DNA of 64,000 nt from Mycolicibacterium litorale (GTDB lineage: Bacteria; Actinomycetota; Actinomycetes; Mycobacteriales; Mycobacteriaceae), in contig NZ_AP022586.1 of the NCBI RefSeq assembly GCF_010731695.1, positions 5,394,001 through 5,458,000 on the forward strand, in the 5' to 3' direction. The translations under genes were made by a program, and so were the position numbers. The notes beneath the pieces are model-generated. The model did no database searches and was not told the DNA's origin. It saw nothing but the letters and a program-made list of their open reading frames with translations. Position 1 is the stretch's first letter. Each line of letters starts with the position of its first letter. Shown here one piece after another: positions 5,802-30,571 of this stretch.

Positions 5802-7262
5802 CTACCGCGTCAACTGCGCACGCAGCTCCCGCTTGAGCACCTTGCCGTAGCTGTTCTTCGGCAGCTCGTCGATGAACTCGTATCGTTTGGGTCGCTTGAA
5901 CCGGGCGATGCGGGTCAGCAGGTGCGCGTCGAGCTCCGTCGGATCCGCCGTGCCGACGATGAACGCGACGACGACCTCACCCCACTCCTCGTCGGGCGCA
6001 CCCACCACGCATGCTTCGGCGACGCCCGGATGCTCGATGAGCACCTCTTCGACCTCGCGCGGATAGATGTTGCTGCCGCCGCTGATCACCACGTCTTTCG
6101 ACCGGTCACGCAGCGTGAGGTAGCCGCGGTCGTCGAACGACCCCATGTCCCCGGTGTACAACCAGCCGCGCCGCAGCGTGGCCGCGGTCGCCTCGGGGTT
6201 GTTCCAGTACCCCGACATGACGACGTCTCCGCGGCACACGATTTCACCGATCTCGCCCGTCGCCGCCGGTGAACCGTCCTCGCGCACCACCGCCACGGCC
6301 ACCCCCGACCGGGCATAACCGACCGAACCGAGGACGGCGTCGTCGGCGTCGAGGTGGTCGGTCCGGCGCAGCCCGGTGATCGTCATCGGCGCCTCGCCCT
6401 GACCGTAGAGCTGGACGAACACCGGGCCGAACGCCGTCATCGCCTTCTTGAGCCTGTCGACGTACATCGGTCCGCCGCCGTAGACCACGGTGCGCAGGTG
6501 GCGCGGGCGGGGCCGGCCGGTCGCCACCAGACGCTGCACCATCGTCGGGGCGAGGAAGGCGCTGCACCCGGGGTGGTGCTCGCACAGGTCGAGGAACTCG
6601 TCCGGGTCGAAAGCGCCGGACTCGGGGATCACCTGCCGGGCGCCGCGCAGCACGTACGGCGGGATGTAGAGACCCGACCCGTGCGACATCGGCGCGCCGT
6701 GGACGAGGCTCGAATTCGCGTCGGGTGCATCAAAATCCGCGAGGTGGGCGACCGTCATCGCCATCAGGTTGCGATGCGACAGCATGGCGCCCTTGGAGCG
6801 GCCCGTGGTCCCGCTGGTGTAGAACAGCCACGCCAGCGCAGCCGGGTCGGTGTCCGGCGGGGTCACCGGATCGGCGTGGTGGCGCTGCGCATACGATTCG
6901 CCGCCGATCGTCTCGACGGGAACCCCGACGTCGAGTTGCGCGGCGATCTTCGGGGACGCGAAGACGTGCGCGGCACCGGAATCGGCGACGATGTCGGCCA
7001 TCTCCCGCGGATGCAGCTTGTAGTTGATCGGGACGTGGACGAACTCCGCCGCCCAGATGCCGAACATCAACTCGACGATCTCCGGCCGGTTCTCCGAGGC
7101 GACCGCGATCCGCGTCCCCGGCTCACCACGAAAGCTGCCGGCCAGCCGCAGCGCCCGTTCCCGGAGTTCGGCCCACGTACAAACCTGTTGCTCACCGTGA
7201 TACAGCGCACCCCACTCACCGAACCGGGCGGCGGCCTGGTCGAGCAGGGTGAACAGGGTCAT
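5802..7262 (-). CDS. AMP-binding acyl-CoA ligase (FadD-like) 1
   Basis: 486 residues. Adenylation motifs are clear: FYTSGTTGRSKG (about 150-161, P-loop), YGQGEAP, YTGDMGSFDDRGYLTLRDR (about 370-388) and the C-terminal catalytic lysine context PKNSYGKVLKREL. It forms acyl-adenylate and then acyl-CoA from a carboxylic acid. The ATG at 7262 is chosen because it overlaps the stop of the upstream SDR by 4 bp and starts the homologous MTLFTLLDQAAARF segment; the frame is open further upstream, but that lies inside the SDR. It is the last gene of a minus-strand operon led by the propeller protein and GntR regulator. Probable role: CoA activation of an acid from the island pathway. Confidence 0.92.
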   Translation of the reverse strand: MTLFTLLDQAAARFGEWGALYHGEQQVCTWAELRERALRLAGSFRGEPGTRIAVASENRPEIVELMFGIWAAEFVHVPINYKLHPREMADIVADSGAAHVFASPKIAAQLDVGVPVETIGGESYAQRHHADPVTPPDTDPAALAWLFYTSGTTGRSKGAMLSHRNLMAMTVAHLADFDAPDANSSLVHGAPMSHGSGLYIPPYVLRGARQVIPESGAFDPDEFLDLCEHHPGCSAFLAPTMVQRLVATGRPRPRHLRTVVYGGGPMYVDRLKKAMTAFGPVFVQLYGQGEAPMTITGLRRTDHLDADDAVLGSVGYARSGVAVAVVREDGSPAATGEIGEIVCRGDVVMSGYWNNPEATAATLRRGWLYTGDMGSFDDRGYLTLRDRSKDVVISGGSNIYPREVEEVLIEHPGVAEACVVGAPDEEWGEVVVAFIVGTADPTELDAHLLTRIARFKRPKRYEFIDELPKNSYGKVLKRELRAQLTR

Positions 7263-8032
7263 CTCGCCACCCACTCCGAGGACAGCGCGAAGTCCGAGAG
7301 GTACTTCGTCGAACTCCACCCGCCGTCGACGACGATCGTCTGCCCGTTGATGAAACTGCCGCCCTCGGAGCACAGGAATGCCACGGTCGCGGCGATGTCC
7401 TCGACCCGGCCCAACCGTTGATGCGGGGTCATCTCGGTGTTGATCTTGCGGAACCGCTCGTCTTCGAGGCGGTGGGCCACCATCGGTGTCAGCGTGACAC
7501 CGGGGGCGACGGCGTTGCAGCGGATGCCCTGCGGACCGTACTGGCATGCGATGTGGGTGGTCAGCGCCGTGAGCCCGCCTTTGGCCGCCGAATAGGCACC
7601 CCCGCGCAGGCCGCCGACGACCGCGAACGTCGACGTGACGTTGATGATGGCCGAGCCCGGGCCCATGTGCGGGATGACGTCGCGGGCCAACCGGAACGGG
7701 GCGCGCAGCATCAAACCCAGGAAGTGGTCCAGGGTTTCGTCGTCGGTCTCGTGCAACGGTTTCGGGCTGCCCACCCCGGCGTTGTTGACGAGGAAGTCGA
7801 CGTGGCCCCAGCGATCCACGGCGGCGGCCACCACCCGCTGCGGGCCGTCGTCGGCGGTCAGGTCGGCCGCGAGTGTCTCGATTCGGTCGGGGTCGCCGAC
7901 CGCGGCGCTCAATTCGGCGAGCCGGTCCTCGTCGCGGCCGGTGCCCAGCACCGCCATCCCGGCCTCGGCGAGCATGGTCGCGCAGCCGAATCCGATGCCG
8001 CTGCTGGCTCCGGTGACAATCGCGACCTGCAT
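7259..8032 (-). CDS. Short-chain dehydrogenase/reductase (classical SDR)
   Basis: 257 residues, the normal classical SDR length. It shows TGASSGIG at 7-14 for NAD(P) binding, NNAGVG (about 87-92), a catalytic Ser in NVTSTF and YSAAKGG (Tyr-x-x-x-Lys, about 150). Its stop overlaps the start of the downstream ligase, and its ATG lies 1 bp after the stop of the upstream ligase, so the three genes are one transcript. It presumably oxidises or reduces a hydroxy/keto intermediate, possibly a CoA ester, in the island pathway; the substrate is not readable. Confidence 0.92.
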   Translation of the reverse strand: MQVAIVTGASSGIGFGCATMLAEAGMAVLGTGRDEDRLAELSAAVGDPDRIETLAADLTADDGPQRVVAAAVDRWGHVDFLVNNAGVGSPKPLHETDDETLDHFLGLMLRAPFRLARDVIPHMGPGSAIINVTSTFAVVGGLRGGAYSAAKGGLTALTTHIACQYGPQGIRCNAVAPGVTLTPMVAHRLEDERFRKINTEMTPHQRLGRVEDIAATVAFLCSEGGSFINGQTIVVDGGWSSTKYLSDFALSSEWVAR

Positions 8033-8033
8033 C

Positions 8034-9569
8034 TCAGTCCACCTTCCGGTCCGTCAGCACCGCGCGGATCCGGTGCTTGAGCACTTTGCCTGCATCATTG
8101 CGCGGCAACGCATCCCAGATCGCCACCTGCTCCGGGATCTTGAACGTCGCGACGCCGCGGGCCCGCAGTACGCGGGCGAGGTCGCCCACGTCGGGGCCGG
8201 GCCGCTCTGTCGGCACGATCACCGCGCAGGCCCGTTCGCCTGTGCGTTCGTCGGGTAGGCCCACCACGGCGATCTCGGCGATGCCCGCCTCGCCGGCGAG
8301 CAGGTCCTCGATCTCCTTCGGGGAGATGTTCTCGCCGTTGCGGATGATGAGGTCCTTGGCGCGCCCGGTCACCACGAGGTGGTCCCCGTCCCACCGGCCC
8401 AGGTCACCGGTGCGGAAATAGCCGTCCGCGTCGAGGGATTCGCGTTCGTCCTCGGGGTGCAGGTAGCCGACGAGCATCTGCGGTCCGCGTGCGCGGATCT
8501 CCCCGTCGACCAGCCGGATGTCGGCGATGCCGGGTCTGCCGTCGGACTCCGCGGCGTGCTCGGCGTCGTCCAGGGCGCCGACCGTGGTCACCGGCACCTC
8601 CGTGGAACCGTAGACCCGGCTGACCGCTGCCCGTTCGAAGTAGTCCGTCGCGTGCCGGATCAACGACGGCGGCACGGATGCCCCGCCGCAGATGAACACC
8701 TTCAGGCTCGGCAACCGGGTGCCCGCCCGCTGCGCGGCCGCCAGCAGTTGTTCGAGGAACGGGGTGGCGCCCGCCATGTGCGTACAGTGCTCGGCGGTCA
8801 TCAGCGCGACGGCCTCGTCGGCGTCCCAGCGGTCCATCAGCACGGCGGTGGTCCCCAGCAGCAGCGGGCATTCGAACGCGTAGATCGACCCGCCGATGTG
8901 GGCGATCGGCGACGGCACCAGAAAAGTGTCACCGGGTTGCACCCGCCAGTGGTCGCGGAGCTGACAGATCAGCGCGTGTATCGAGTTGTGGCTGTGCAGA
9001 ACACCTTTCGGGCGACCGGTGGTGCCGGAGGTGTACATCACCATCCGCACCTCGTCGGCCCCCGGACTGTGCAGAGCGCACGGCGGCGGATCGTCGAACA
9101 GCGTCGCGTAGGGTGTGTGGCCGTTCGCCGCGCCACGCACCACCACCACCTCGGGCGGACGGTCGAGTGCGGTGGTGACCCGGTGCAGCATCGCGGCGTG
9201 ATCATGGTCGCGGAACCGGGCGGGCACGAAGATCATCCGGCTGTTCACGTCGTCGAGCAGAAACCGCAGTTCGTGATCGCGCATCGACGGCAGGATCGGG
9301 TTGACCACCATGCCCGCGAGCGCCGCCCCGAGGTAGACCACCGCGGCCTCATGCCAGTTCGGCAGCATGAACGACACGACACTGCCCGCCGGCATCCGCG
9401 CGGTCAGCGCCTGCGCCAGGACGGTGGCGCGCTCCAGCAGGGTCGCACAGCTCAGCCGGCAGGTCCCGTCGACGAGGACCACCCGGTCCGGTGTCTCCCG
9501 CGCGGCGTCGCGCAAGGTGTCGGCGAGGGTGTGGCGCACCCACAGGCCGCGGGCGTACGGGTCGGGCAC
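8034..9569 (-). CDS. AMP-binding acyl-CoA ligase (FadD-like) 2
   Basis: 511 residues, GTG start. Motifs in order: VMYTSGTTGRPKG (about 170-182), VYGSTEVP, YFRTGDLGRWDGDHLVVTGRAKD (about 386-408, shown by its TGD and R-x-K core) and a terminal LPRNDAGKVLKHRIR with the catalytic Lys. Only the order and spacing differ from ligase 1; overall identity appears modest, so the two may handle different intermediates. It is 3 bp downstream of the GntR regulator stop in the same operon. Confidence 0.92.
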   Translation of the reverse strand: MPDPYARGLWVRHTLADTLRDAARETPDRVVLVDGTCRLSCATLLERATVLAQALTARMPAGSVVSFMLPNWHEAAVVYLGAALAGMVVNPILPSMRDHELRFLLDDVNSRMIFVPARFRDHDHAAMLHRVTTALDRPPEVVVVRGAANGHTPYATLFDDPPPCALHSPGADEVRMVMYTSGTTGRPKGVLHSHNSIHALICQLRDHWRVQPGDTFLVPSPIAHIGGSIYAFECPLLLGTTAVLMDRWDADEAVALMTAEHCTHMAGATPFLEQLLAAAQRAGTRLPSLKVFICGGASVPPSLIRHATDYFERAAVSRVYGSTEVPVTTVGALDDAEHAAESDGRPGIADIRLVDGEIRARGPQMLVGYLHPEDERESLDADGYFRTGDLGRWDGDHLVVTGRAKDLIIRNGENISPKEIEDLLAGEAGIAEIAVVGLPDERTGERACAVIVPTERPGPDVGDLARVLRARGVATFKIPEQVAIWDALPRNDAGKVLKHRIRAVLTDRKVD

Positions 9570-9572
9570 CGC

Positions 9573-10310
9573 TCAGCCCTTGACGCGGCGCATCGTCATC
9601 GAGTGCCGGTAGCGCGCCGACGGATGGGTGTTGACGGTGACCTGCGCGACCTCACCGTCGGAGGTGATGTACGTGCGCTGCATCTGCAGGGCGGCCTCGC
9701 CTGCGTCGACGCCGAGCTTGCCGGCCAACTCGGCGTCGAGCACCACCGCGGCGATCTCCTGATGCACCTCGACGACGCTCACCCCGAACAGATCCTCGAT
9801 CAGCGGGAAGATCGGGCCGGTGTGGCGGGGCAGCAGCCGGCCGACCGCGGCGAACGCGCGGTTGATGTAGTACTCGGTGCGGCAGATCGGTGTGGACGTC
9901 GCGTCCGCCTGGCGGTAGCCCTGCACCGCAAGCCATTCCGAGCCGACGGCGAGGCGGGTCTTGGCGGCGAGCGCGGCATCGACGGTGACGGTGGTGTTCG
10001 ATTCGATCGTGAACTGCGCGCCGGCGGCGAAGGCCAGCAGATCGTCGATCGACATCACGTCCTGGGCGTAGGTGTTCCCCGCGGGCCGGGGCACGACCAG
10101 CGTTCCGGCCCGGGGACGCGACGTCACCAGGTTGTCCTCGCGCAGCCGGCGCAGCGCCTCGCGAATGGTGAAGCGGCTCACCTCGAACCGCTCGCACAGT
10201 TCGTGTTCGGTGGGCAGCTGCGAGCCGACCGGGTACACCCCGTCGACGATCTCCTTGCGCAGCGTCCGCGCCACCTGCAGGTAGCGGTGCTCGGGATGGG
10301 TGACGCTCAT
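9573..10310 (-). CDS. GntR-family transcriptional regulator, HutC subfamily
   Basis: 245 residues. The N-terminal winged helix (about 10-75) reads QVARTLRKEIVDGVYPVGSQ, then FEVSRFTIREALRRL and a wing with RPRAGT; the C-terminal part (about 95-240) has the UTRA effector fold pattern (YRQADATSTPICRTEYYIN; LAGKLGVDAGEAALQMQR). HutC-type regulators bind small ligands and usually repress their own operon. Its ATG overlaps the stop of the propeller gene by 4 bp. A TAGTCCAGACAA site in the promoter gap (11952-11963) has the GTC-nn-GAC core expected for this subfamily and is its likely operator. Confidence 0.92.
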   Translation of the reverse strand: MSVTHPEHRYLQVARTLRKEIVDGVYPVGSQLPTEHELCERFEVSRFTIREALRRLREDNLVTSRPRAGTLVVPRPAGNTYAQDVMSIDDLLAFAAGAQFTIESNTTVTVDAALAAKTRLAVGSEWLAVQGYRQADATSTPICRTEYYINRAFAAVGRLLPRHTGPIFPLIEDLFGVSVVEVHQEIAAVVLDAELAGKLGVDAGEAALQMQRTYITSDGEVAQVTVNTHPSARYRHSMTMRRVKG

Positions 10311-11926
10311 GCGCCCGCGGCGTCCCGGCGCAACGCCAGGACACTGCCGTCCCCGTCGGCGGAGACGTACAGCGAACCGTCCGGCCCCATGGTGATCCCC
10401 GCGAACGGCCCCTGGGGTCCGGAGAACGGTGGCATCCCGCGCAGCGGTTTGGGGTGTACGCCCGGCGGTGGGCCGACGGGTAGTCCGGAGGCGATCGTCT
10501 GGCGGACGCCGCTGTTCATGTCGACGGCGACCACCTCCTTCGCGCCGGCGTCGACGACGTAGAGCACGCCGTCGGAGACCAGCAGGCCCTGCGGCCGCTG
10601 CAGCCCGTCGGCGACGGTGACGGCGTGGCCGCCCGCCAGGCGCACCACCCGGCCCGCCCCTGACTCGGCGACCAGCGGGGCGCCGTCAGGGGCGATCGCC
10701 ACGCCCACGGGTTCGCGCAGATCCGACGCCACCACCTCCACTTTGCCGCCGTGCGCCGAGAGCACCCGCCCGGTGCCGAGTTCGGCGAAGACCACCGCGT
10801 CTCCGGGCGCGAGCGCGAGGCCGTAGAGCTGGTCGAAACCGTCGGCGAGCACGTCACTTTCCCCGGCCGCGGGCCGGTACCTGGTGACCTGTCCACCCGA
10901 GGTGGTGACGACGAACTCGCCGTCACCTGCGGCGGCCAGCCCGCGCAGGAAGCCGGGGTAGCCGGGGGTGAACAGCATGCCGACCGTCTGCAGCGACCCG
11001 TCGGCCTGCAGCGCGTAGAAGTAGGTGCCGTCGGCGACGTAGAGCCTGCCGTCGTCGCCGACCGCCAGATCCAACGGCCAGTTCAAGCCGCCGGCCAGGG
11101 TGGTGCGGGTGCCGCCGCCGGGCAGTATCTCGGTGATCTCGCCGGTGAAGTTGGACACGAACAACCGGTCGCCGACGAAGGTCAGGTTGTCCAGACCCGG
11201 ATTCAATTGCGCGAGTAGCGTTCTCTCGCCGGTGCGCGGGTCGATGCGCAACACCTGGCCGCTGGCCACCTGGGTGGAGACGATGTTGCCCTGCGGGTCG
11301 AACTTCACCGCGTCGGGCACCCCGAGGTCACCGGCGACACGCTGTGGCTCACCCCCGTCGGGGTCGATGCGCCAGATCTCGTTCGCGGTCATCAACGGGT
11401 AGTACAGGAATCCGTCCGGACCGACCTCCATCGCATTGGGCGACGGGAGATTCTCGGCGAGGACGCGCACGATGCCGCCGTGGTGGTCGAGTTCCATCAG
11501 CCGTCCGCCTTCGCGGCACTCACCGACGAACAGTCGGCCGTCGTGCACGGTGATGCCGTTGGCGCAGGGCAGGTCGTCGCGCAGGACGCGGGTGCCACCG
11601 CCCGTGTCGCGGACGCTGACCCGCCCGTCCATCACCTCGGTCGCGTACAGGGCGCCGTCCAGGCCGAAGGCCACGTCGTCGGGGGCGACGATGTCGCCAC
11701 CCCTGGGGCTGACCGTCTCCAGCGTCCCGCCGGCCAGGTCGAGTGCGCTGATCTGGCTACCGGTCACCTGGGCGACGTACACGCGGCCGTCGGGCCCGGT
11801 GCGCAGGCCGTTCGCGCCGAACAGCCTGCTGGGCGCGGTCAGCCGTTCGACGCGCCAGCCCTCGGCGACGACCGGATGCGCACCGGGGTAGCGGGTGGCC
11901 TGCAGCGACTCCGTCGACGACGTCAT
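10307..11926 (-). CDS. SMP-30/gluconolactonase/NHL-like beta-propeller protein
   Basis: 539 residues from the ATG at 11926 (a TTG at 11944 is an alternative). About a dozen repeats of the form L-x-x-G-L-x-x-P-x-x-(V/L)-A-x-x-x-D-G-x-L-Y-V run along the whole protein, for example around residues 40, 80, 155, 290, 400 and 440, enough for two six-bladed propellers. No signal peptide or membrane helix is seen, so it is probably cytosolic. Single-domain SMP-30 relatives are Ca2+-dependent lactonases. Being first in an operon that diverges from a Baeyer-Villiger monooxygenase operon, it is a candidate lactone hydrolase. Double length is unusual, and a non-catalytic role is possible. Confidence 0.78.
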   Translation of the reverse strand: MTSSTESLQATRYPGAHPVVAEGWRVERLTAPSRLFGANGLRTGPDGRVYVAQVTGSQISALDLAGGTLETVSPRGGDIVAPDDVAFGLDGALYATEVMDGRVSVRDTGGGTRVLRDDLPCANGITVHDGRLFVGECREGGRLMELDHHGGIVRVLAENLPSPNAMEVGPDGFLYYPLMTANEIWRIDPDGGEPQRVAGDLGVPDAVKFDPQGNIVSTQVASGQVLRIDPRTGERTLLAQLNPGLDNLTFVGDRLFVSNFTGEITEILPGGGTRTTLAGGLNWPLDLAVGDDGRLYVADGTYFYALQADGSLQTVGMLFTPGYPGFLRGLAAAGDGEFVVTTSGGQVTRYRPAAGESDVLADGFDQLYGLALAPGDAVVFAELGTGRVLSAHGGKVEVVASDLREPVGVAIAPDGAPLVAESGAGRVVRLAGGHAVTVADGLQRPQGLLVSDGVLYVVDAGAKEVVAVDMNSGVRQTIASGLPVGPPPGVHPKPLRGMPPFSGPQGPFAGITMGPDGSLYVSADGDGSVLALRRDAAGA

Positions 11927-11951
11927 GGCTGGCGACGTTATCAATCTCGAC

Positions 11952-11963
11952 TAGTCCAGACAA
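11952..11963 (-). promoter_or_regulatory. Candidate HutC/GntR operator before the propeller-GntR-ligase operon
   Basis: TAGTCCAGACAA contains the palindromic GTC-CA-GAC core with flanking T and A, close to the TGGTCTAGACCA-type sites of HutC-subfamily regulators. It is 26 bp upstream of the propeller start codon, where a -35 box would be expected for the minus-strand operon that encodes a HutC-type GntR. Confidence 0.45.
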
Positions 11964-11990
11964 TAGGCGCAGAGACCTCGCCGACGACCC

Positions 11991-12020
11991 TTGACGGCCC
12001 GATAAAGCCTGCGGAATAGT
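11991..12020 (+). promoter_or_regulatory. Probable promoter of the Rieske/BVMO operon
   Basis: TTGACG (11991-11996) and AATAGT (12015-12020) are separated by 18 bp, a reasonable -35/-10 pair. It would start transcription near 12027, inside the palindrome described next. Confidence 0.4.
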
Positions 12021-12041
12021 GTTCTGCAATATGCAGAGCAC
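12019..12041. promoter_or_regulatory. Near-perfect palindrome (operator) at the start of the catabolic operon
   Basis: Arms GTGTTCTGCA and TGCAGAGCAC flank ATA; 9 of 10 positions are symmetric. It overlaps the predicted transcription start and ends 3 bp before the first candidate ATG of the operon, which is where a repressor would block transcription. It differs from the GntR-type site at 11952, so a second regulator, not found in this window, probably binds it. Confidence 0.6.
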
Positions 12042-12044
12042 CGT

Positions 12045-12917
12045 ATGTCGTCCGGACAAATAAGCGTTCGGATGCAGGAATCCCTGGGCCTCACCGGCCG
12101 CGTCGTCGTCGTTTCGGGCGCCGGCGGCGGCGGCATCGGCACCACCGTCACCGAACGGGCGGCGGCTGCGGGGGCGACCGTCGTCGCCGTCAGCCGCAGG
12201 CAGGACAACCTCGACCAACACATCGGCCCGCTGATCGCCAAGGGGCTGTCGATCGTCACGGTGGCGGCCGACGCCTCCACCGACGAGGGCATCGCCCGCG
12301 TCCTGGACGAGGCCCGGCGCGCCGACGGCGACCTCTACGGTCTGGTCAACATCGCCGGCGGTGCGGCACCCGCGACGTGGATGCCGGCCACCCGCGTCAC
12401 CCGGGACGACTGGCGCGCGTTGTTCACCGCCAATCTCGAGACCGCCTTCTTCATGAGCCAGGCCGTCAGCCGGGAGTTGCGCGCCCAGGGCCGCAACGGC
12501 TCGATCGTCTCGGTGTCCTCGATCAGCGGGATGAACACCGCGCCGTTCCACATCGCCTACGGCACGGCCAAAGCGGCGGTGGTCGCGATGACCCGCACCA
12601 TGGCCGTCGAACTGGCGCTCGACGGCATCCGCGTCAACGCGGTCGCCCCCGGCGTCACCGAGACCGCCGCCTCGGCCACCTACGTCGACGAGGACCCCGA
12701 ACGGGACCGCACCGCGATCGCGATGGGCCGCCGCGGCACACCCGCCGAACAGGCCAACGCGATCCTGTTCCTGCTCTCGGACTTGTCGAGCTACATCACC
12801 GGTCAGACCCTGCTGGTCGACGGCGGCCTCGACCTCAAGTGGACGCACCTGGGCGCCGACAACACGTCGCTGTTCCTCAAGGACGAGAACTTCCGCTCCG
12901 CGATCAAGGAGATCTGA
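12045..12917 (+). CDS. Short-chain dehydrogenase/reductase, first gene of the catabolic operon
   Basis: 290 residues from the ATG at 12045. An in-frame ATG at 12072 (281 residues, starting MQESLGLTGRV) fits SDR relatives equally well and leaves room for a leader after the operator palindrome; neither start has a clear ribosome site. SDR motifs: SGAGGGGIGT (cofactor loop), NIAGGA, a Ser in VSSISG and the YGTAKAA active site. The stop TGA shares its last A with the ATG of the Rieske gene (TGATG). It likely oxidises an alcohol to a ketone ready for the oxygenases downstream, which is inference from gene order. Confidence 0.9.
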   Translation: MSSGQISVRMQESLGLTGRVVVVSGAGGGGIGTTVTERAAAAGATVVAVSRRQDNLDQHIGPLIAKGLSIVTVAADASTDEGIARVLDEARRADGDLYGLVNIAGGAAPATWMPATRVTRDDWRALFTANLETAFFMSQAVSRELRAQGRNGSIVSVSSISGMNTAPFHIAYGTAKAAVVAMTRTMAVELALDGIRVNAVAPGVTETAASATYVDEDPERDRTAIAMGRRGTPAEQANAILFLLSDLSSYITGQTLLVDGGLDLKWTHLGADNTSLFLKDENFRSAIKEI

Positions 12918-14281: not shown

Positions 14282-14328
14282 TTTCGGTGTAGTTCGTCGC
14301 GCTGGACGCAACCAAACACGCCGAAATC
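14280..14328. repeat. Intergenic hairpin element A
   Basis: Arm GATTTCGGTGT (beginning inside the TGA stop of the Rieske gene) pairs with ACGCCGAAATC at the other end, allowing one G-U type pair and a short bulge; the loop is about 20 nt. It is followed by the AAGGAGA ribosome site of the next gene. There is no T-run, so it is not a classic terminator. It resembles in size and position the elements at 16179, 18292, 26716 and 43211. Confidence 0.6.
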
Positions 14329-14345
14329 GCCCACGAAGGAGACAT

Positions 14346-16178: not shown

Positions 16179-16242
16179 CGCCGAGCGCACGGTTGTTGGC
16201 GTCCCCACTCGGCATGTGCGTACACCAACCGTGCAGTCGGCG
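16179..16242. repeat. Intergenic hairpin element B (fills the whole gap)
   Basis: The element begins at the first base after the BVMO stop and ends one base before the next ATG. Outer arm CGCCGA...TCGGCG and inner arm GCACGGTTG...CAACCGTGC pair with only two mismatched positions between them; the loop is about 25 nt. The outer CGCCGAGC and inner ACGGTTG are shared with the element at 18292. It leaves no room for a normal ribosome site in front of the SDR. Confidence 0.75.
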
Positions 16243-16243
16243 C

Positions 16244-21386: not shown

Positions 21387-22534
21387 GCGTCAAGGACTTT
21401 CGAAGCGAGGTGCGCGCCTGGTGCGCCGAGCACATCCCGGCCGACTGGCGACAGCGGCAGACCGGGGTGACCGACGAGGAGTTCGTCCGCTTCCAGAAGG
21501 CGTGGTTCGCCGAACTGCACAGCGCCGGCTACGCGGTCCCGCACTGGCCGGCCGAATGGGGTGGCGGGCTCTCGGTGGCCGAGCAGATCGTGCTGTACCA
21601 GGAGTTGGCGGCCCACGACGCGCCCCGGCTGGTGCTGGCGTTCGTCGGCATCCACCACGCCGCGTCGACGCTTTTGGTCGCGGGCACCGAAGACCAACGA
21701 CGCAGACACCTGCCCGCGATCCTGGACGGCGAGATCTGGGTGCAGGGATTCTCCGAACCCGAGGCGGGCTCCGATCTCGCGAGCCTGCGCACCACCGCCC
21801 GCCGCGACGGTGACACGTTCATCGTCAACGGCCAGAAGCTCTGGGCCAGCGGCGGTATGCACGCCGACTGGTGCCTGCTGCTGGCCCGCACGGACCCCGC
21901 GGCCCCCAAACGCAGAGGCATCTCCTACTTCCTGCTCGACATGACCACACCGGGTGTCGAGGTGCGGCCGATCCGCAACGCCGTCGGCGACTCCCACTTC
22001 TGCGAGATCTTCCTCAGCGACGTCGTGGTGCCTGCCGCCAACCTGGTCGGCGCCGAGAACACCGGCTGGCAGGTCGCGCAGGCCACCCTGGGCGCCGAAC
22101 GCGGCATGACGATGCTGGAGTTGGCCGAACGCCTCGCCAACGCGGGCTTCCGCCGACTGGTGCAGCACAGTCCGGTCGACGATCCGATCGTCGCCGATCG
22201 GTTGGCGCAGTTCGAATGTGAGATCACCGGGCTGCGCGGACTGTGCCGCAAGGTCGTCGAGAACACCGATCCCGGGCCCGCCGACGCCTCGATCGTCAAG
22301 CTCTACTACAGCGAGCTGTTGCAGCGGCTCACCGACTTCGCCGCCGAGACCGTTGGCCTCGTCACGCACACAGAGCTGTCGAAGCCGATGTCGAGCGGAT
22401 GGGAGTCCGGGTCCTGGTTGCTGGACTTCATCGGCTCCTGGGAATGGACGATCCCGGGCGGGTCCAGTGAGATCCAGCGCACCATCATCGGCGAACGCGG
22501 CCTCGGCCTGCCTCGGGAACCGAGCGCGGTGTGA
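21383..22534 (+). CDS. Acyl-CoA dehydrogenase, large subunit of pair 2
   Basis: 383 residues. Motifs: PAEWGGGLSVAEQIVLYQEL (about 54-73), QGFSEPEAGSDLASLRTTARR (same loop as pair 1), VNGQKLWASGG and PGGSSEIQRTIIGERGLGLP at the C-terminus. As in pair 1, the residue before the G of the last motif is not Glu (it is Gly), so the base is likely in the partner. It is closely related to the pair 1 large subunit, pointing to duplication. ATGA and GTGA overlaps connect it to its neighbours. Confidence 0.9.
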   Translation: MSVKDFRSEVRAWCAEHIPADWRQRQTGVTDEEFVRFQKAWFAELHSAGYAVPHWPAEWGGGLSVAEQIVLYQELAAHDAPRLVLAFVGIHHAASTLLVAGTEDQRRRHLPAILDGEIWVQGFSEPEAGSDLASLRTTARRDGDTFIVNGQKLWASGGMHADWCLLLARTDPAAPKRRGISYFLLDMTTPGVEVRPIRNAVGDSHFCEIFLSDVVVPAANLVGAENTGWQVAQATLGAERGMTMLELAERLANAGFRRLVQHSPVDDPIVADRLAQFECEITGLRGLCRKVVENTDPGPADASIVKLYYSELLQRLTDFAAETVGLVTHTELSKPMSSGWESGSWLLDFIGSWEWTIPGGSSEIQRTIIGERGLGLPREPSAV

Positions 22535-23517
22535 TGACCGGCTTCAGGGAATTCCACGACGAACTGCGTTCGGTGGCAGGCGATCTGCTGGCCAAGGACG
22601 GCGCGGTCGACTGGCCGGTGCTCGCCGGCGCCGGCTGGACCGGTCTCGAGGTGCCCGAACACCTCGGCGGCGCCGGGGCGACGTTCGCCGAGACCGCCGT
22701 GATCTGCGCCGAGATCGGCCGAGCCGCCGGTACCACCGACCACCTTGGCAGCGCGGTGCTCGCCGTCGGTGCGTTGAATCTCCTAACGCCCAGTCGGATT
22801 CGTGACGAGCTCCTGGCCGGCACCGCGGCGGGCACCGTCCGCAGCGCGGTCGTCATCGACGGGTTCTCGCACCAGGACGGGCGGGTGCGCGGGCGCGCCG
22901 AGTTCGTGCCCGACGCCGTAGGGGCCGACCGCCTGCTGCTGCTCGCCGGCGACGTCCTCGTCGAGGCGGTCCCCACCGTGACGCCGCAGCCGGTGCTCGA
23001 CGAGACGCGGCGGCTGGCCGTCGTCACCGCCGCCGGCGTCGAGGTCACCAACGTACTGCCGGTCGGCCCCCACGCCGCCCGGACGCTGCGGGACCGCGCC
23101 GCGGTCGCGATCGCCTGCGACAGCCTCGGACTCGCCGAGGCGATGCTGTCGGCGACCGTCGAGTACGCCAAGGTGCGCCACCAGTTCGGCAGGCCCATCG
23201 GATCGTTCCAGGCCGTCAAACACGCCTGCGCCGACATGCTGGTGCAGATCGAGGTGTGCCGCCAACTCGTCGAGGCGGCGGTCGACGCCGTCGCCACCGA
23301 CTCCGGTGACGTGACAACCGCTGCCGCCATGGCCAAATCGCACGTGTGCAGCGCCGCGGTCGGCATCGCCGGCAAGGCCATGCAGCTGCACGGCGGTATC
23401 GGATACACCTGGGAGAGCGGCATCCACGTGTATCTCAAACGGGCCGCGCTCAACCGCTCCATGTTCGGATCTCCTGCGGCACACCGCAGACAACTCGCTC
23501 GACGCTATGGGAACTAA
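22531..23517 (+). CDS. Acyl-CoA dehydrogenase small subunit of pair 2
   Basis: 328 residues from the GTG at 22531 (an ATG three bases later is equivalent). The C-terminal domain is well preserved: YAKVRHQFGRPIGSFQAVKH (about 211-230) and LHGGIGYTWESGIHVYLKRA (about 288-307), with a Glu in TWES at the place of the catalytic base of small FadE subunits. The N-terminal domain is short and low in conserved motifs. It completes a second putative heterotetramer. The gene ends 13 bp before the TPP enzyme start. Confidence 0.88.
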   Translation: MMTGFREFHDELRSVAGDLLAKDGAVDWPVLAGAGWTGLEVPEHLGGAGATFAETAVICAEIGRAAGTTDHLGSAVLAVGALNLLTPSRIRDELLAGTAAGTVRSAVVIDGFSHQDGRVRGRAEFVPDAVGADRLLLLAGDVLVEAVPTVTPQPVLDETRRLAVVTAAGVEVTNVLPVGPHAARTLRDRAAVAIACDSLGLAEAMLSATVEYAKVRHQFGRPIGSFQAVKHACADMLVQIEVCRQLVEAAVDAVATDSGDVTTAAAMAKSHVCSAAVGIAGKAMQLHGGIGYTWESGIHVYLKRAALNRSMFGSPAAHRRQLARRYGN

Positions 23518-23530
23518 GGAGAGTCTCGCT

Positions 23531-25246
23531 ATGGGTGTCCCCGTCTACAAACGCATCCTCGACCTGTTCGAAGCCGAGGGCGTCAACACGCTGTTCGGCA
23601 TCCCCGACCCGAACTTCGTGCACATGTTCACCGAAGCCGACGCCCGCGGCTGGTCGGTGGTGGCGCCGCACCATGAGCTGAGCGCCGGCTTCATGGCAGA
23701 GGCGGCGTCGCGAATGACCGGCAAGCCGGGGTTGTGCATCGGCACGCTGGGGCCGGGTGTCGCGAACATCGCCGGTGCGATGATGTGCGCGCTGGTGGAG
23801 AACTCGCCGGTGATCTTTCTCGGCGGTCAGCGCGCCCGCATCACCGAGCGGCGGGTGCGCCGCGGACGCATCCAATTCGTCCAACAGGAGGGGCTTTTCG
23901 CGCCATCGGTCAAGTACAGCAGCTCGATCGAGTATGCCGACCAGACCGACGAGATCATCCGCGAGGCGATCCGCCGCTCGATGTCGGGAACCCCGGGACC
24001 CAGCTACATCGAGTTCCCGTCGCACGTCATCCTCGAAGAACTCGACGTGCCGGACCCGTTGCCACCCAATCGCTATCGGCTCGTCAACCAGGGGGCGGGG
24101 GAGCGGGAGGTCGCCGAGGCGGTCGAACTGATCCGCGCGGCGACGAACCCGATCCTGCTGGTGGGTCACGGCGTGCACACCTCACGCACGCAGGAGCAGG
24201 TCAGGGAGCTCGCCGAACTCATGGCCTGCCCGGTGATCCAGACCTCCGGCGGCACCTCCTACATCCCCGGTCTCGAGGACCGCACGTTCCCGTACCTGTT
24301 CTCGCCGGCAGCCAACGAGGCCGTCGAACAGTCCGATCTGTGCGTGGCGCTGGGGACCGAGCTCGGCGAGCCCATGCACTACGGCCGCACCCAGCACTGG
24401 GCGGGTAACGACGCCAACCGCAAATGGGTGTACGTCGAGCAGGATCCCGCCGCGATCGGCGTCAACCGGCAGTTCGACGTGCCGCTGGTCGGCGACCTGC
24501 GCGGGGTGGTGCCGCAGCTGGTCGCGGCGTTGCGCGACACCCCGCGCAGCGCGTCGCCGAACCTGGCCTCCCTGATCGAGGCCGACGCCACCGAGATCGC
24601 GAGGGTGGCCGACGAGGCCCCGGCCGGTCGCACCCCGGTGCACCCCGCCCGGTTCGTCGTCGAGGCGACCAAGGCGTTCAACGAGTACGCCGAGGACGGC
24701 ATCATGGTCCGCGACGGCGGCGCCACCGTGATCTTCCAGTGGACCTATTCACAGGCCAAACCGCGCGACGTGATCTGGAATCAGAACTTCGGCCACCTCG
24801 GCACCGGTCTGCCGTACGCGGTCGGCGCGTCGGTCGCCGAGGGACGCAAGCGGCCGGTGATGCTGCTGACCAGCGATTCGGCGTTCCTGTTCCACATCGC
24901 CGAACTGGAGACCGCCGCCCGCGAAGGGCTGCCGCTGGTGTGCGTGGTCGGTGTCGATCACCAGTGGGGTCTCGAAGTCGGCGTCTACAAGCGGACTTTC
25001 GAGCAGCCGTCACCCCAACCCGGGGTGCACTGGAGCAAAGAGGTCCGGATGGACAAGGTCGCCGAGGGCTTCGGCTGTCACGGCGAGTACGTCGAGAAGG
25101 AGGACGAGATCGGTCCGGCCATCCAGCGCGCCTACGCCAGCGGCAAGACCGCCGTCGTCCACGTCTGCATCGACCCGAAGGCGAACTCCGAGGAGATGCC
25201 GAAGTACGACCGATTCCGCACCTGGTACGCCGAAGGCACCCAGTAG
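23531..25246 (+). CDS. Thiamine diphosphate-dependent enzyme (acetolactate synthase/2-hydroxyacyl-CoA lyase-like)
   Basis: 571 residues; ATG at 23531 chosen because AAGGAGAG lies 7 nt upstream (an ATG 8 codons earlier overlaps the previous gene). Three-domain TPP layout: N-terminal Pyr domain with catalytic Glu in PHHELSAGFM (about 50), central domain with LLVGHGVHTS, and C-terminal PP domain. The normally conserved GDG...N metal motif reads TSDSAFLF...VGVDHQWG, so Gly residues are changed to Ser and Asn to Asp, while the Mg-binding Asp remains. The family includes synthases, lyases and decarboxylases. Followed by an aldehyde dehydrogenase, a carbon-chain cleavage releasing an aldehyde is plausible. 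Confidence 0.85.
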   Translation: MGVPVYKRILDLFEAEGVNTLFGIPDPNFVHMFTEADARGWSVVAPHHELSAGFMAEAASRMTGKPGLCIGTLGPGVANIAGAMMCALVENSPVIFLGGQRARITERRVRRGRIQFVQQEGLFAPSVKYSSSIEYADQTDEIIREAIRRSMSGTPGPSYIEFPSHVILEELDVPDPLPPNRYRLVNQGAGEREVAEAVELIRAATNPILLVGHGVHTSRTQEQVRELAELMACPVIQTSGGTSYIPGLEDRTFPYLFSPAANEAVEQSDLCVALGTELGEPMHYGRTQHWAGNDANRKWVYVEQDPAAIGVNRQFDVPLVGDLRGVVPQLVAALRDTPRSASPNLASLIEADATEIARVADEAPAGRTPVHPARFVVEATKAFNEYAEDGIMVRDGGATVIFQWTYSQAKPRDVIWNQNFGHLGTGLPYAVGASVAEGRKRPVMLLTSDSAFLFHIAELETAAREGLPLVCVVGVDHQWGLEVGVYKRTFEQPSPQPGVHWSKEVRMDKVAEGFGCHGEYVEKEDEIGPAIQRAYASGKTAVVHVCIDPKANSEEMPKYDRFRTWYAEGTQ

Positions 25247-25273
25247 CGGCGCGAACTAAGAGAGAGTGGGCTC

Positions 25274-26707
25274 ATGCGTGAGTATCTGAAGTTCTACATC
25301 GACGGCCAGTGGGTCGAGCCGCTGCGTCCGAACACCCTCGAGGTCGACAACCCGACCACCGAAGAGGTCTCCGGCAAGATCGCGCTGGGCTCCTCGGCCG
25401 ATGTCGATCTGGCGGTCAGCGCGGCCCGGCGCGCGTTCGCGACCTGGTCGCAGTCCACCCGCGAGGAGCGGCTCGACCTGCTGCAGGCCATCCTGGCCGA
25501 GTACCAGAAGCGGGCAGGTGACCTCGCCGACGCGGTGAACGAGGAGATGGGCGCGCCGGCGTCGCTGGCATCGGGTCCGCAGGTGAACCTGGGGTTGGGA
25601 CACCTGATGACGGCCATCGACGTGCTGAAGAATTACGAGTTCGAGGAGCAGCACGGGTCCACGCTGGTGGTGAAGGAACCGGTCGGCGTCTGCGGGCTGA
25701 TCACCCCGTGGAACTGGCCGATCAACCAGATCGCGTGCAAGGTGTACCCGGCGCTGGCCACCGGGTGCACGATGGTGCTCAAACCGTCGGAGGTCGCCCC
25801 GTACTCGGCGCAGATCTTCACCGAGATCATCGACGCCGCAGGCGTTCCCGCGGGCGTGTACAACCTGGTCTACGGCGACGGACCCGGCGTCGGCGCACCG
25901 CTGTCCAGCCACCCCGACGTCGACATGGTGTCGTTCACCGGTTCGACACGCGCCGGGATCGAGGTCGCGCGCAACGCGGCGCCGACCGTCAAGCGGGTGA
26001 CGCAGGAACTCGGCGGGAAGAGTCCCAACATCGTGCTCGACGACGAGGACTTCGCCAAGAGCGTGGCCGCCGGAGTCAGCGTGATGATGATGAACAGCGG
26101 TCAGAGCTGTAATGCGCCGTCGCGCATGCTGGTGCCGAACTCACGGATGGACGAGGCCATCGAGATCGCCAAGCAGACCGCCGGTGCGGTCAAGGTCGGC
26201 GACCCGAGCGACAAGACCGCGATCGGCCCGGTGGCGTCCAAGGCCCAGTTCGACAAGATCCAGGGCCTGATCCAGAAAGGGATCGACGAGGGGGCGACGG
26301 TCGCGATCGGCGGCCCCGGGCGCCCCGACGGTCTCGAGAAGGGTTACTACGTCAAGCCGACGGTGTTCGCACATGTCAGAAACGACATGACGATCGCGCG
26401 TGAGGAGATCTTCGGGCCGGTGCTGTGCATCCTCGGGTACGACGATCTCGACGAGGCGATCGAGATCGCCAACGACACCGAGTACGGGTTGGCGGGCTAC
26501 GTGTCGGCGGCCGACCTGGACACGGCCCGTCAGGTGGCGCGCCGGATCCGCGCGGGTTCGGTGGCGATCAACCACGGCTTCGACATGGGCGCCCCGTTCG
26601 GCGGCTACAAGCGCAGCGGCAACGGCCGCGAGTGGGGTCAGTTCGCGTTCGACGAGTTCCTCGAGATCAAGGCCGCGCTCGGCTACGCGCCCGAGACCTC
26701 TGCCTGA
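25274..26707 (+). CDS. NAD(P)-dependent aldehyde dehydrogenase
   Basis: 477 residues, normal ALDH length. Catalytic Cys in NSGQSCNAPSR (about 279), catalytic Glu in TQELGGKSPN (about 245), cofactor loop FTGSTRAG (about 222) and TPWNWPINQ (about 144). It converts an aldehyde to the acid. The purine-rich stretch before ATG (AAGAGAGAG) provides the ribosome site. Placed immediately after the TPP enzyme it is the obvious acceptor of an aldehyde product. The stop is followed within 9 bp by hairpin element D. Confidence 0.94.
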   Translation: MREYLKFYIDGQWVEPLRPNTLEVDNPTTEEVSGKIALGSSADVDLAVSAARRAFATWSQSTREERLDLLQAILAEYQKRAGDLADAVNEEMGAPASLASGPQVNLGLGHLMTAIDVLKNYEFEEQHGSTLVVKEPVGVCGLITPWNWPINQIACKVYPALATGCTMVLKPSEVAPYSAQIFTEIIDAAGVPAGVYNLVYGDGPGVGAPLSSHPDVDMVSFTGSTRAGIEVARNAAPTVKRVTQELGGKSPNIVLDDEDFAKSVAAGVSVMMMNSGQSCNAPSRMLVPNSRMDEAIEIAKQTAGAVKVGDPSDKTAIGPVASKAQFDKIQGLIQKGIDEGATVAIGGPGRPDGLEKGYYVKPTVFAHVRNDMTIAREEIFGPVLCILGYDDLDEAIEIANDTEYGLAGYVSAADLDTARQVARRIRAGSVAINHGFDMGAPFGGYKRSGNGREWGQFAFDEFLEIKAALGYAPETSA

Positions 26708-26715
26708 CTGACGCG

Positions 26716-26774
26716 GCGAAACTACGGTTGTTGACGGATTTCCGCGGATTCGGAGTCAACAACCGTAGTCTCGC
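26716..26774. repeat. Intergenic hairpin element D (perfect 15-bp inner arms)
   Basis: ACTACGGTTGTTGAC and GTCAACAACCGTAGT are perfect inverted copies, extended by GCGA / TCGC beyond one mismatch; the loop is 19 nt. It occupies the gap between the aldehyde dehydrogenase stop and the amidohydrolase ATG. The inner arm is the same as in element C apart from one base. Confidence 0.8.
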
Positions 26775-26778
26775 GCTC

Positions 26779-27675
26779 ATGGCGACCGGACGATACGAAT
26801 ACGGCATCGATTTCGCCCACGTCGACGCGGTCGACTTCCACACCCATGTCGAGGTCGACGGCCACGGCCACCGCGCCTACGACGATGCGCTGGTCGAGGC
26901 GACCGCCGCGTACTTCAGGCTGGAGGCCGGCGCACTGTCGAGCGTCGACGCGCTGGCCGATCAGTACCGGCGCCACAACACCGCCGCGGTGGTGTTCACG
27001 ATCGACGCCCGCACCGCGATGCGCCACGTCCCGAACTCGATCGAAGACCTCATCGCCGGCGCGGTGCGCAACAACGACGTGCTGATCCCGTTCGGCAGTG
27101 TCGACCCGTGGCACGAACGGCGTGCCGTGCACCGGGTGCACGAACTGGTGCGCGACTACGGCGTCAAGGGTTTCAAGTTCCATCCGAGCATGCAGGCCTT
27201 CGAGCCCAACGACCGCCGCTTCTATCCGATCTACGAGGCGATCGCCGGTGCCGGAGTGCCCGCGCTGTTCCACACGGGGCAGACAGGGATGGGGGCCGGG
27301 CTGCCCGGCGGGCACGGCATCAAACTGCGGTACTCCGACCCGATGCTGCTCGACGACGTGGCGGCCGACTTCCCTGAGCTGACGATCGTGATGGCCCACC
27401 CCGCGGTGCCGTGGGTGGACGCGCAGATCTCGATCGCCTCGCACAAGGCCAACGTCTTCATCGACCTGTCGGGCTGGAGCCCCAAGTACTTCCCGCCGCA
27501 GCTGGTCGCCGCGATCGGTCGGCAACTACGCACGAAGGTGCTGTTCGGCACCGATTACCCGTACATCCAGCTCGACCGGTGGCGGCGCGACTTCGACGCA
27601 CTCGGGGTGGACCCCGCGGTGCGCCGCCTCGTGTTCAAGGACAACGCGCTGCGGGTGCTCGGCCTGACCGGCTAG
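26779..27675 (+). CDS. Amidohydrolase family 2 (ACMSD-like) hydrolase/decarboxylase
   Basis: 298 residues. Metal-binding pattern of amidohydrolase-2 proteins: VDFHTHVE (about 18-25, H-x-H), FKFHPSMQAF (about 132), LFHTG (about 163), MAHPAVPW (about 205) and FGTDYPYIQ with the metal Asp (about 257). The family contains nonoxidative decarboxylases (ACMSD, gamma-resorcylate decarboxylase) and C-C or ester hydrolases. It is the last gene of the catabolic operon, separated from the aldehyde dehydrogenase by hairpin D, so its expression may differ. A decarboxylation or hydrolysis of a ring-fission acid is likely. Confidence 0.85.
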   Translation: MATGRYEYGIDFAHVDAVDFHTHVEVDGHGHRAYDDALVEATAAYFRLEAGALSSVDALADQYRRHNTAAVVFTIDARTAMRHVPNSIEDLIAGAVRNNDVLIPFGSVDPWHERRAVHRVHELVRDYGVKGFKFHPSMQAFEPNDRRFYPIYEAIAGAGVPALFHTGQTGMGAGLPGGHGIKLRYSDPMLLDDVAADFPELTIVMAHPAVPWVDAQISIASHKANVFIDLSGWSPKYFPPQLVAAIGRQLRTKVLFGTDYPYIQLDRWRRDFDALGVDPAVRRLVFKDNALRVLGLTG

Positions 27676-27759: not shown

Positions 27760-28083
27760 ATGGCGGAGACGACCGAGCGCGTCTGCTTCCTGCTCCAGCT
27801 CAAGCGTGACCGCATCGACGACTACCTCGCCGCGCACGAGCACGTGTGGCCGGAGATGCTGGAAGCCCTGCGCCAGGCCGGATGGCGCAACTACTCGCTG
27901 TTCCTGCGCGCCGAGGACGGTCTGGTGGTCGGCTACTTCGAAACCGACGATCACGCCGCCGCCACCGCGGCCATGGCCGCCACCGAGGTCAACGACCGGT
28001 GGCAGGCGACCATGGCCGACTACTTCGACAGCAGACCGGATCACGCGATGCGTGTGCTGCCGTCGTACTTCCACCTACCCTGA
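27760..28083 (+). CDS. rhaM: L-rhamnose mutarotase
   Basis: 107 residues, the usual RhaM length (about 104). The family signature is present: FLLQLKRDRIDDYLAAHEHVWPEML with the active-site His in the AHEHVWPEM helix (26-33), NYSLFLR and VGYFET. The enzyme interconverts alpha and beta anomers of L-rhamnose so that the isomerase receives the right form. First gene of the operon, with GAGGGAG before ATG. Its presence with RhaI identifies the sugar as rhamnose or a close relative. Confidence 0.93.
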   Translation: MAETTERVCFLLQLKRDRIDDYLAAHEHVWPEMLEALRQAGWRNYSLFLRAEDGLVVGYFETDDHAAATAAMAATEVNDRWQATMADYFDSRPDHAMRVLPSYFHLP

Positions 28084-28103
28084 ACAAGAGACCGAGGACT
28101 GCC

Positions 28104-30568: not shown

Positions 30569-30571
30569 ATC

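Follow-up and report, generated by a model that had tools for sequence, protein, structure and literature searches.

A candidate GntR-controlled regulon for the breakdown of a cyclic, probably bulky alcohol or ketone in Mycolicibacterium litorale

In a 64,000-nucleotide stretch of the Mycolicibacterium litorale genome (positions 5,394,001 to 5,458,000 of contig NZ_AP022586.1, referred to here in its full length as the window), eighteen genes, g6 to g23, are arranged as two divergent operons at positions 5802-27675. These genes are a real, conserved catabolic gene system that consists of known enzyme families and has one unusual evolutionary feature. The two operons probably form a single regulon (a probability of about 0.6 is assigned to this reading) which is controlled by the GntR/UTRA regulator g9 (9573-10310, minus strand) and is devoted to the catabolism of an alcohol or ketone that is cyclic, probably bulky and similar to a terpenoid or steroid. 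Sequence comparison shows operator-like sites common to both operons, core genes that stay together, and a hydratase and a thiolase in the operons of some relatives. The system is apparently unreported. The first-pass annotation of this DNA had suggested an undescribed degradation pathway, and within the open-access literature searched that suggestion stands; none of the titles and abstract openings listed there describes a cluster combining a Rieske oxygenase, a Baeyer-Villiger monooxygenase (BVMO), a thiamine diphosphate (ThDP)-dependent enzyme and a beta-propeller protein, and a search by the strain name Rhodococcus USK13 yielded nothing on the cluster.

The physiological substrates of BVMOs are widely unknown, according to PMC4498894. 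Here one BVMO belongs to what appears to be a regulon with operators of its own, found in 37 mycobacterial loci; rhodococci and Sphingobium plasmids hold the core. The system offers a bounded gene set for probing the breakdown of ring-shaped natural products by soil bacteria.

Operator-like sites shared by the two operons

The beta-propeller gene g10 (10307-11926, minus strand) and the short-chain dehydrogenase/reductase (SDR) gene g11 (12072-12917, plus strand) diverge from a gap of 145 bp (11927-12071) that contains two 12-bp near-palindromes 96 bp apart. Site 1, TAGTCCAGACAA (11952-11963), lies 26 bp before the start of g10, and site 2, TCGTCCGGACAA (12048-12059), ends 13 bp before the start of g11. 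Among the alignable mycobacterial gaps, which comprise those of 35 of 41 loci and that of the window, site 1 is present in 36 of 36 and site 2 in 35 of 36, the one without it being locus L035; locus L031 was excluded by a gene-call error, yet it shows both sites. The distance between the sites is 95-97 bp in 34 of 35 gaps and 108 bp in the remaining one. Columns conserved at 90% or more make up 22 of the 24 positions within the sites versus 27 of the 121 positions elsewhere in the gap, and some of the conserved columns outside the sites resemble -35 and -10 elements by eye. A close form of the site pattern occurs 67 times in the 860,523 bases of the 41 loci, twice in 31 of them, once in 5 and not at all in 5.

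The exact pattern TNGTCCRGACAA has two matches in the 5.58-Mb genome, both in the gap between g10 and g11, and a control pattern also has two. About two matches are expected by chance, but hardly both within one gap of 145 bp. When one mismatch is allowed, the window has three matches versus 1.7 expected, which is unremarkable. The weight of the evidence for these putative operators is in the conservation of the sites and not in the number of matches in the window. A regulon extending beyond the cluster was considered and rejected; relaxing the pattern to TNGTCCRGACNA yields 10 matches in the genome, spread over 8 places of which 6 are outside the gap, compared with 14 matches for a control pattern, and the matches outside the gap are taken as chance. 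A single perfect site in Sphingobium RAC03 (L070:12314) and a near-match in L029 at 17571 are probably chance as well.

The sites accompany g9. In a set of 70 loci (L118 and L120 excluded, and some of the loci coming from the same or near-identical genomes), all 57 loci with g9 have a site, while the 13 loci without g9 consist of 4 with sites and 9 with neither. In the four (L074, L131, L132 and L135), g9 is found in another fetched locus of the same genome. Within the 57 loci the site lies by the start of g10 in 55, before g9 itself in L080, and under the g10 gene call in L031.

The sites also accompany the genes when the cluster is rearranged. In genome G260 (L142) the order is g9-g10, two sites, g21-g22-g11-g12-g13-g14-g15. 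The cluster is split over two places in G187, G246 and G285, with sites at both, and the BVMO and ThDP genes are unlinked in these three genomes. Loci L143-L145 have g9-g10, one site and g15-g16-g17-g19-g20-g21, with a hydratase gene between g17 and g19 in two of the three, and L132, L135 and L131 have two sites followed by g11-g12-g13-g14-g22, with a TauD gene between g13 and g14 in two of the three. On the plasmid of M. branderi, exact sites occur at four places in 864 kb, all of them at 548-625 kb, and with one mismatch there are 35 matches versus 17 for the control. One of the four precedes a run of ThDP, aldehyde dehydrogenase, Rieske, BVMO, SDR and CoA-transferase genes; two others precede a P450-TauD run and one a GntR-ligase-SDR run, and g7-g9 lie about 80 kb from the Rieske and BVMO genes.

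The idea that the two operons are one coherent unit is supported by the sites in their shared gap and before the same genes in rearranged loci. Since the sites accompany these genes across arrangements, with g9 in the genome, the comparison ties g9, the predicted binding protein, to the sites and both operons to a single putative control.

Two further observations concern genes near the sites and the BVMO. The P450-TauD pair of M. branderi (L074, 11082-13352), preceded by two of the sites, may represent additional pathway enzymes. A gene for a TauD/TfdA-type dioxygenase directly follows the BVMO gene in the mycobacterial loci L123, L039, L132 and L135 and in L043 from Novosphingobium.

A conserved seven-gene core and its spread

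The order g7-g15 is kept, as judged by tblastn, in 36 of the 37 mycobacterial loci of the 41-locus set, the 37th (L023) being a 5-kb fragment. The core consists of the propeller g10, the SDR g11, the Rieske oxygenase g12 (12917-14281), the BVMO g13 (14346-16178), the SDR g14 (16244-17161), the ThDP-dependent enzyme g21 (23531-25246) and the aldehyde dehydrogenase g22 (25274-26707), all on the plus strand except g10. Rhodococcus sp. HNM0563 (L048) and Rhodococcus sp. USK13 (L071, on a plasmid) both have the genes in the order propeller, SDR, Rieske, BVMO, SDR, ThDP, aldehyde dehydrogenase. On a plasmid of Sphingobium sp. V4 that was typed as conjugative, the g11-type SDR gene faces a run of BVMO, Rieske, ThDP, aldehyde dehydrogenase and propeller genes, six in a row, and a g14-type SDR gene follows three genes on, past a regulator-sized gene, a ligase gene and a gene of 382 residues. 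The core proteins of strain V4 are 54-72% identical to those of the window, with g11 at 72%. Sphingobium RAC03 has a V4-like run in which the 382-residue gene is annotated as a MaoC dehydratase. In that strain (L075, 23235-26246) the aldehyde dehydrogenase and the propeller are each spread over two frames, and both are whole in V4 (L147). A ferredoxin gene is present in a second Rieske locus of RAC03. A lead to tomatine degraders, given by BVMO homologs on plasmids of tomato-root Sphingobium strains, was dropped; these BVMOs are 45-50% identical, and the two regions inspected have other neighbours.

Among 301 genomes of the family, a BVMO ortholog was found in 54 and the ThDP gene in 49, with 48 genomes sharing both, 6 having the BVMO only and 1 the ThDP gene only at the thresholds used. 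The genomes are related, and Fisher values for this co-occurrence overstate independence. In the first 151 genomes there are 20 that share both genes, and every ThDP copy in them lies within 9.3 kb of a BVMO start on the same contig; for this count 35 genomes had a BVMO match, of which 23 were kept at 54% identity or more and 12 weaker ones were dropped. In genome G119 the BVMO and ThDP genes are both present twice; both ThDP copies lie within 5 kb of a BVMO gene, and one of these ThDP copies has an internal stop.

Exchange of the ThDP gene for a luciferase-like monooxygenase gene

In some loci the ThDP gene is missing and a gene for a luciferase-like monooxygenase (LLM) stands between the Rieske and BVMO genes. 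The 38 named loci of the trees divide into 19 with the LLM gene and no ThDP gene in the locus and 19 with the reverse, where absence of the ThDP gene was judged within flanks of at most 10 kb and L023, a 5-kb fragment, is uninformative. In a larger set of 62 rows (60 of them different), 24 loci have the LLM gene and 38 the ThDP gene, with none having both and none having neither. The 62 rows leave out any locus in which the Rieske and BVMO genes were not both called, any further region of a genome already represented, and L043, L045, L049, L071, L075 and L080, and the ThDP gene was scored as present for L131, L132, L135, L117 and L119, where it lies elsewhere in the same genome. For the genome-wide view, absence of the ThDP gene was judged in the 301 genomes of the family: the LLM gene occurs in 5 of these, directly adjoining the BVMO gene in all 5, and none of the 5 has the ThDP gene. 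At the thresholds used, only one of the 54 BVMO genomes (G019) has neither gene; its contig ends there, and a partial ThDP gene is visible at the end (L069). The two genes exclude each other in these sets. Switching between them takes a minimum of 7 changes when traced on the Rieske tree and of 4 on that of the BVMO, both being quick trees with many weak branches. Supported independent pairs number 4 and 3, respectively, all of them opposite in state, and with so few pairs a sign test cannot reach 0.05.

The LLM of L027 matches solved proteins at 104, 87 and 76 bits, these being alkanal monooxygenase alpha chains and a luciferase-like monooxygenase. Its highest NCBIfam score is with an F420 model (TIGR03619, 115.5 of 166.9 bits), and it reaches 97 of 600 bits with a luciferase model, both below cut-off. 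No copy of the LLM gene was found in the genome of the window strain at E <= 1e-120. Alkanal monooxygenases turn aldehydes into acids. An ortholog of the aldehyde dehydrogenase is absent from 4 of the 5 LLM genomes, but G291 has one at a distance of 400 kb, and such an ortholog also occurs in 16 genomes for which no BVMO ortholog is listed; the aldehyde dehydrogenase is thus not specific to the pathway.

The LLM and the ThDP-dependent enzyme may be two exchangeable ways to achieve one C-C cleavage and oxidation. That a flavin enzyme unrelated to it has repeatedly taken the place of the ThDP-dependent enzyme suggests a single step of definable chemistry. A fuller proposal can be put forward only tentatively, namely that a horizontally spread pathway, dedicated to bulky cyclic ketones, relies for C-C cleavage on the ThDP-dependent enzyme, usually with the aldehyde dehydrogenase, or on a single LLM, and that one has repeatedly replaced the other in mycobacteria. 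If this is true, it would make directly testable both an intermediate of the acyloin or 2-oxo type and a novel pairing of chemistries that can stand in for each other.

Assignment of the core enzymes

Searches with Pfam and NCBIfam agree with the enzyme families that had been named for the eighteen genes, as do the motif checks. The protein encoded by g12 has the motif CxH-x24-CxxH at residue 83 and exceeds the cut-offs of PF00355 (53 bits) and PF00848 (61.2 bits), so that cluster motif and catalytic domain together identify it as a probable alpha subunit of a Rieske non-heme iron oxygenase. Likewise, g13 is predicted to be a type I BVMO from its fingerprint (FxGxxxHxxxWD, FKGHAFHSSRWD, at residue 215) and its nucleotide-binding motifs (GGGFGG at 73 and GTGATA at 250). 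It scores 682 bits with the NCBIfam model of PtlE, under the equivalog cut-off of 1100. Its best match among solved proteins is 5mq6, which we take to be polycyclic ketone monooxygenase (436.6 bits), followed by the phenylacetone (265), OTEMO (229) and cyclohexanone (224) enzymes.

SMP-30-type lactone hydrolysis had been proposed for g10. The protein does pass the Pfam models SGL (54.5 bits, cut-off 26.3) and Vgb_lyase, which upholds the family likeness; the name lactonase does not follow, since the only NCBIfam model passed is ScyD/ScyE (NF033206, 136.8 bits, cut-off 80), which is a family name and not a reaction. The protein has 539 residues and its predicted model has a mean predicted local distance difference test (pLDDT) score of 89.5. 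Residues 33-270 align with single propellers, and g10 probably consists of two propellers in tandem. Residues N39, D84, N123, N164 and D246, considered for a lactonase-like metal site, are invariant in 31 aligned sequences. A lactonase role for g10 is a guess.

The SDR family of g14 is upheld, and within it the protein is most like the hydroxyacyl-CoA dehydrogenases of multifunctional enzyme type 2 (MFE-2). It matches solved MFE-2 dehydrogenases at 333 (2et6), 250 (3oml), 226 (1gz6) and 223 bits, with the next protein at 164 bits, and it misses the cut-off of its nearest NCBIfam model (PRK07791, 233 of 373 bits). Because its nearest relatives are the (3R)-hydroxyacyl-CoA dehydrogenases of MFE-2, g14 appears to fit beta-oxidation better than a ring-alcohol step.

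The ThDP-dependent enzyme g21 belongs to the acetolactate synthase/oxalyl-CoA decarboxylase superfamily and is below cut-off in all 25 listed NCBIfam models of the 52 that matched. These include models for oxalyl-CoA decarboxylase or 2-hydroxyacyl-CoA lyase (TIGR03254, 191 of 739 bits; NF058623, 170 of 600) and for acetolactate synthase (PRK08322, 259 of 509; TIGR00118, 230 of 538). Its predicted model is poor, with a mean pLDDT of 57.8. The product of g22 matches PF00171 at 506 bits and has the motifs ELGGK and GQSC.

Acyl-CoA dehydrogenases, hydratase and thiolase

Downstream of g14 are the gene for the class III CoA-transferase g15 (17154-18371; PF02515, 380.9 bits) and a module, g16-g20, that comprises the acyl-CoA dehydrogenase genes g16 (18368-19540) and g17 (19537-20454), the oxidoreductase gene g18 (20451-21386), and the acyl-CoA dehydrogenase genes g19 (21383-22534) and g20 (22531-23517), all on the plus strand. 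Profile matches include the middle domain Acyl-CoA_dh_M in g16 and g19, with no match to it in g17 or g20. The two adjacent pairs are accordingly of the heteromeric type by their domain content, with g16 and g19 the putative large subunits and g17 and g20 the putative small ones. The g20 protein is IpdE2-like, at 161.7 bits against a cut-off of 450. Profile searching identifies g18, left unnamed in the first-pass annotation, as a Gfo/Idh/MocA oxidoreductase; it is present in 8 of the 41 loci. The module adjoins g15, is inverted or, in L048, lies on the far side of the core.

Hydratase and thiolase had been listed as missing steps. Both are indeed absent from the island, and both are found in operons of relatives. 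An enoyl-CoA hydratase gene lies between the dehydrogenase pairs in L009, L024, L040 and L048, that is, in 4 of the 15 module-bearing loci of the 41, and also in L144 and L145. In L144 the ThDP gene is followed by genes for a dehydrogenase, a CoA-transferase, a hydratase-like protein, a thiolase and another dehydrogenase and by a TetR gene. No ortholog of the hydratase was found in the genome of the window strain, where the best relative, at 486157, is 46% identical.

Proposed pathway and its alternatives

In the proposed pathway, the SDR g11 would produce a ring ketone, the Rieske oxygenase g12 would hydroxylate the skeleton, the BVMO g13 would form a lactone by inserting oxygen, and this lactone would be opened by the propeller g10. 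The ThDP-dependent enzyme g21 would break a C-C bond beside a carbonyl and g22 would oxidise the aldehyde released, a part that one luciferase-like flavin monooxygenase would replace in other species. CoA thioesters would then be formed by the ligases g6 (5802-7262; PF00501, 235.9 bits) and g8 (8034-9569), both on the minus strand, and by the CoA-transferase g15, and would be degraded by the two heteromeric acyl-CoA dehydrogenases, a hydratase, g14 and a thiolase. The regulator g9 exceeds the cut-offs of PF00392 (GntR winged helix, 75.9 bits) and PF07702 (UTRA ligand domain, 59 bits), which places it in the HutC/UTRA branch of the GntR family. It would repress both promoters until the substrate or an intermediate causes its release from the operators. 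The kinship of the encoded proteins slightly favours a polycyclic substrate of terpenoid or steroid type; a bulky ring is indicated because g13 is nearest to 5mq6 and PtlE, the dehydrogenases are large/small pairs, and g20 is IpdE2-like.

Several results weigh against this interpretation. The Rhodococcus and Sphingobium loci L048, L071 and L075 have no such site, and the proposed control would therefore be limited to mycobacteria. Profile searches find no ferredoxin or reductase among the eighteen genes, as had been anticipated. The dehydrogenase module was found in only 15 of the 41 loci, some loci being truncated, and is thus not essential to the core. The hydratase gene carried by the nearest relative (L009) is missing from the window strain. 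The propeller g10 matches NHL and YWTD propellers in addition to lactonases, with lactonases and NHL propellers scoring alike. The ligase g8 is nearest to models of medium-chain and cyclohexanecarboxylate-CoA ligases, below their cut-offs, and this leaning toward medium-chain or cyclohexane-type acids tells against a firm assignment of a bulky substrate. Kinship among BVMOs is, moreover, a weak guide to substrate; PMC4498894 finds no support for their clustering by catalytic properties and notes that few physiological substrates are known. PMC4052671 describes a Dietzia BVMO of the CPDMO group that oxidises many ketones, and steroids at a lower rate, and does not oxidise cyclopentadecanone.

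Alternatively, the cluster could be an accessory arm of steroid catabolism that handles a sterol variant or side chain, and not a separate terpenoid pathway. Mycobacterial hosts are known for sterol degradation, g20 is IpdE2-like, and g14 is MFE-2-like. That a BVMO of the CPDMO group attacks steroids, at a lower rate (PMC4052671), agrees with such a role. An accessory arm is nevertheless unlikely given that the cluster has its own operator-like sites with no other exact match in the genome, that the seven-gene core occurs as a unit on Sphingobium and Rhodococcus plasmids, and that g20 falls well short of the IpdE2 cut-off. Also unlikely is a smaller alicyclic, macrocyclic or monoterpenoid ketone, or a man-made alicyclic compound, as the substrate. 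The affinities of g8 and the loose relation between BVMO kinship and substrate (PMC4498894 and PMC4052671) would suit such a compound, whereas the match of g13 to 5mq6 far exceeds those to the phenylacetone, OTEMO and cyclohexanone enzymes. Heteromeric dehydrogenase pairs, too, are known for ring-bearing substrates. The match of g13 to PtlE, and a weak match to PtlD (80.4 bits) of the TauD protein adjoining the BVMO in L039, might suggest a biosynthetic cluster for a pentalenolactone-like lactone, which is very unlikely, since the cut-offs for PtlE and PtlD (550) are both missed, no terpene cyclase, polyketide synthase or nonribosomal peptide synthetase is encoded among the eighteen genes, and the ligases, CoA-transferase, dehydrogenases, hydratase and thiolase indicate breakdown. 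That the two operons are unrelated neighbours by chance, responding to unrelated substrates as the first-pass annotation had allowed, could appeal to their divergent orientation and to the 80-kb separation in M. branderi, yet it is scarcely credible given the operator-like sites shared across Mycobacterium arrangements, including rearranged loci, and the presence of g9 in the same genome wherever sites front these genes.

Gene layout and neighbouring genes

The window has a G+C content of about 69%, and the host genome is a single contig of 5.58 Mb. Codon-based gene calling on the window gives exactly eighteen genes within 5802-27675; the minus strand carries five (5802-11926) and the plus strand thirteen (12072-27675), in agreement with the two divergent operons described earlier, and 9 of the 16 adjacent gene pairs inside the operons overlap. 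The minus-strand operon also includes the SDR gene g7 (7259-8032; PF13561, 204.5 bits); g11 matches the same family at 185.2 bits. The SDR motif YxxxK is found in all three SDRs, and the ligase motif TSGTTGxxK is present. Among named strains, Mycobacterium sp. IS-1496 has the nearest BVMO (97% identical), and the nearest named propeller is from a Mycolicibacterium litorale (90% identical).

The last gene of the plus-strand operon, g23 (26779-27675), encodes an Amidohydro_2 protein (PF04909). It stays downstream of g22 in two near relatives, L118 (82% identical) and L120 (84% identical), and its part in the pathway is uncertain. The rhamnose genes at 27760-33737 were rejected as part of the island because they are missing at that place in L118 and L120, where g23 is kept. 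An L-rhamnose-type operon occupies 27760-35076, between g23 and g34, with genes for a rhaM mutarotase, an MFS transporter, an isomerase-like TIM barrel, an aldolase-SDR fusion, an FGGY kinase and a LacI regulator; from its absence at that place in the two relatives, it may be a strain-specific insertion. To the left of the cluster, at 542-5788, are genes for a luciferase-like monooxygenase, an amino-acid permease, a GNAT protein and an Acyl-CoA_dh_2 protein, which are possibly a separate unit.

Comparison with known systems

The pathways for camphor and other cyclic ketones that use a BVMO and lactone opening have the same outline, from ketone to lactone to acid to CoA ester, and we know of no Rieske enzyme, propeller of this kind or ThDP/aldehyde dehydrogenase pair in camphor-type pathways. 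The BVMO g13 resembles the (neo)pentalenolactone D synthases PtlE/PntE and 5mq6, members of the group of long type I BVMOs to which CPDMO also belongs, in its length, fingerprint and full-length match, but differs from PtlE/PntE in scoring below the PtlE cut-off and in belonging to a CoA-linked catabolic cluster and not to a terpene biosynthesis cluster. The ThDP-dependent enzyme g21 shares its superfamily and domain order with cyclohexane-1,2-dione hydrolase (122.6 bits) and with oxalyl-CoA decarboxylase and 2-hydroxyacyl-CoA lyase (177-182 bits), and its match to a reconstructed acetolactate synthase (192.5 bits) is slightly above those to the C-C-splitting ThDP enzymes. The LLM of the relatives may be compared with bacterial luciferase or alkanal monooxygenase and with type II BVMOs; it is nearest to alkanal monooxygenase alpha chains and below the luciferase cut-off. 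Mycobacterial ring catabolism by way of CoA thioesters is represented by the KstR2 regulon, IpdE1/IpdE2 and FadE pairs. The cluster is like KstR2-type catabolism in its large/small acyl-CoA dehydrogenase pairs, CoA ligases and MFE-2-type hydroxyacyl-CoA dehydrogenase, and unlike it in that g20 misses the IpdE2 cut-off, entry would be by Rieske oxygenase and BVMO, a ThDP-dependent enzyme is included, and control would be of the GntR and not the TetR type.

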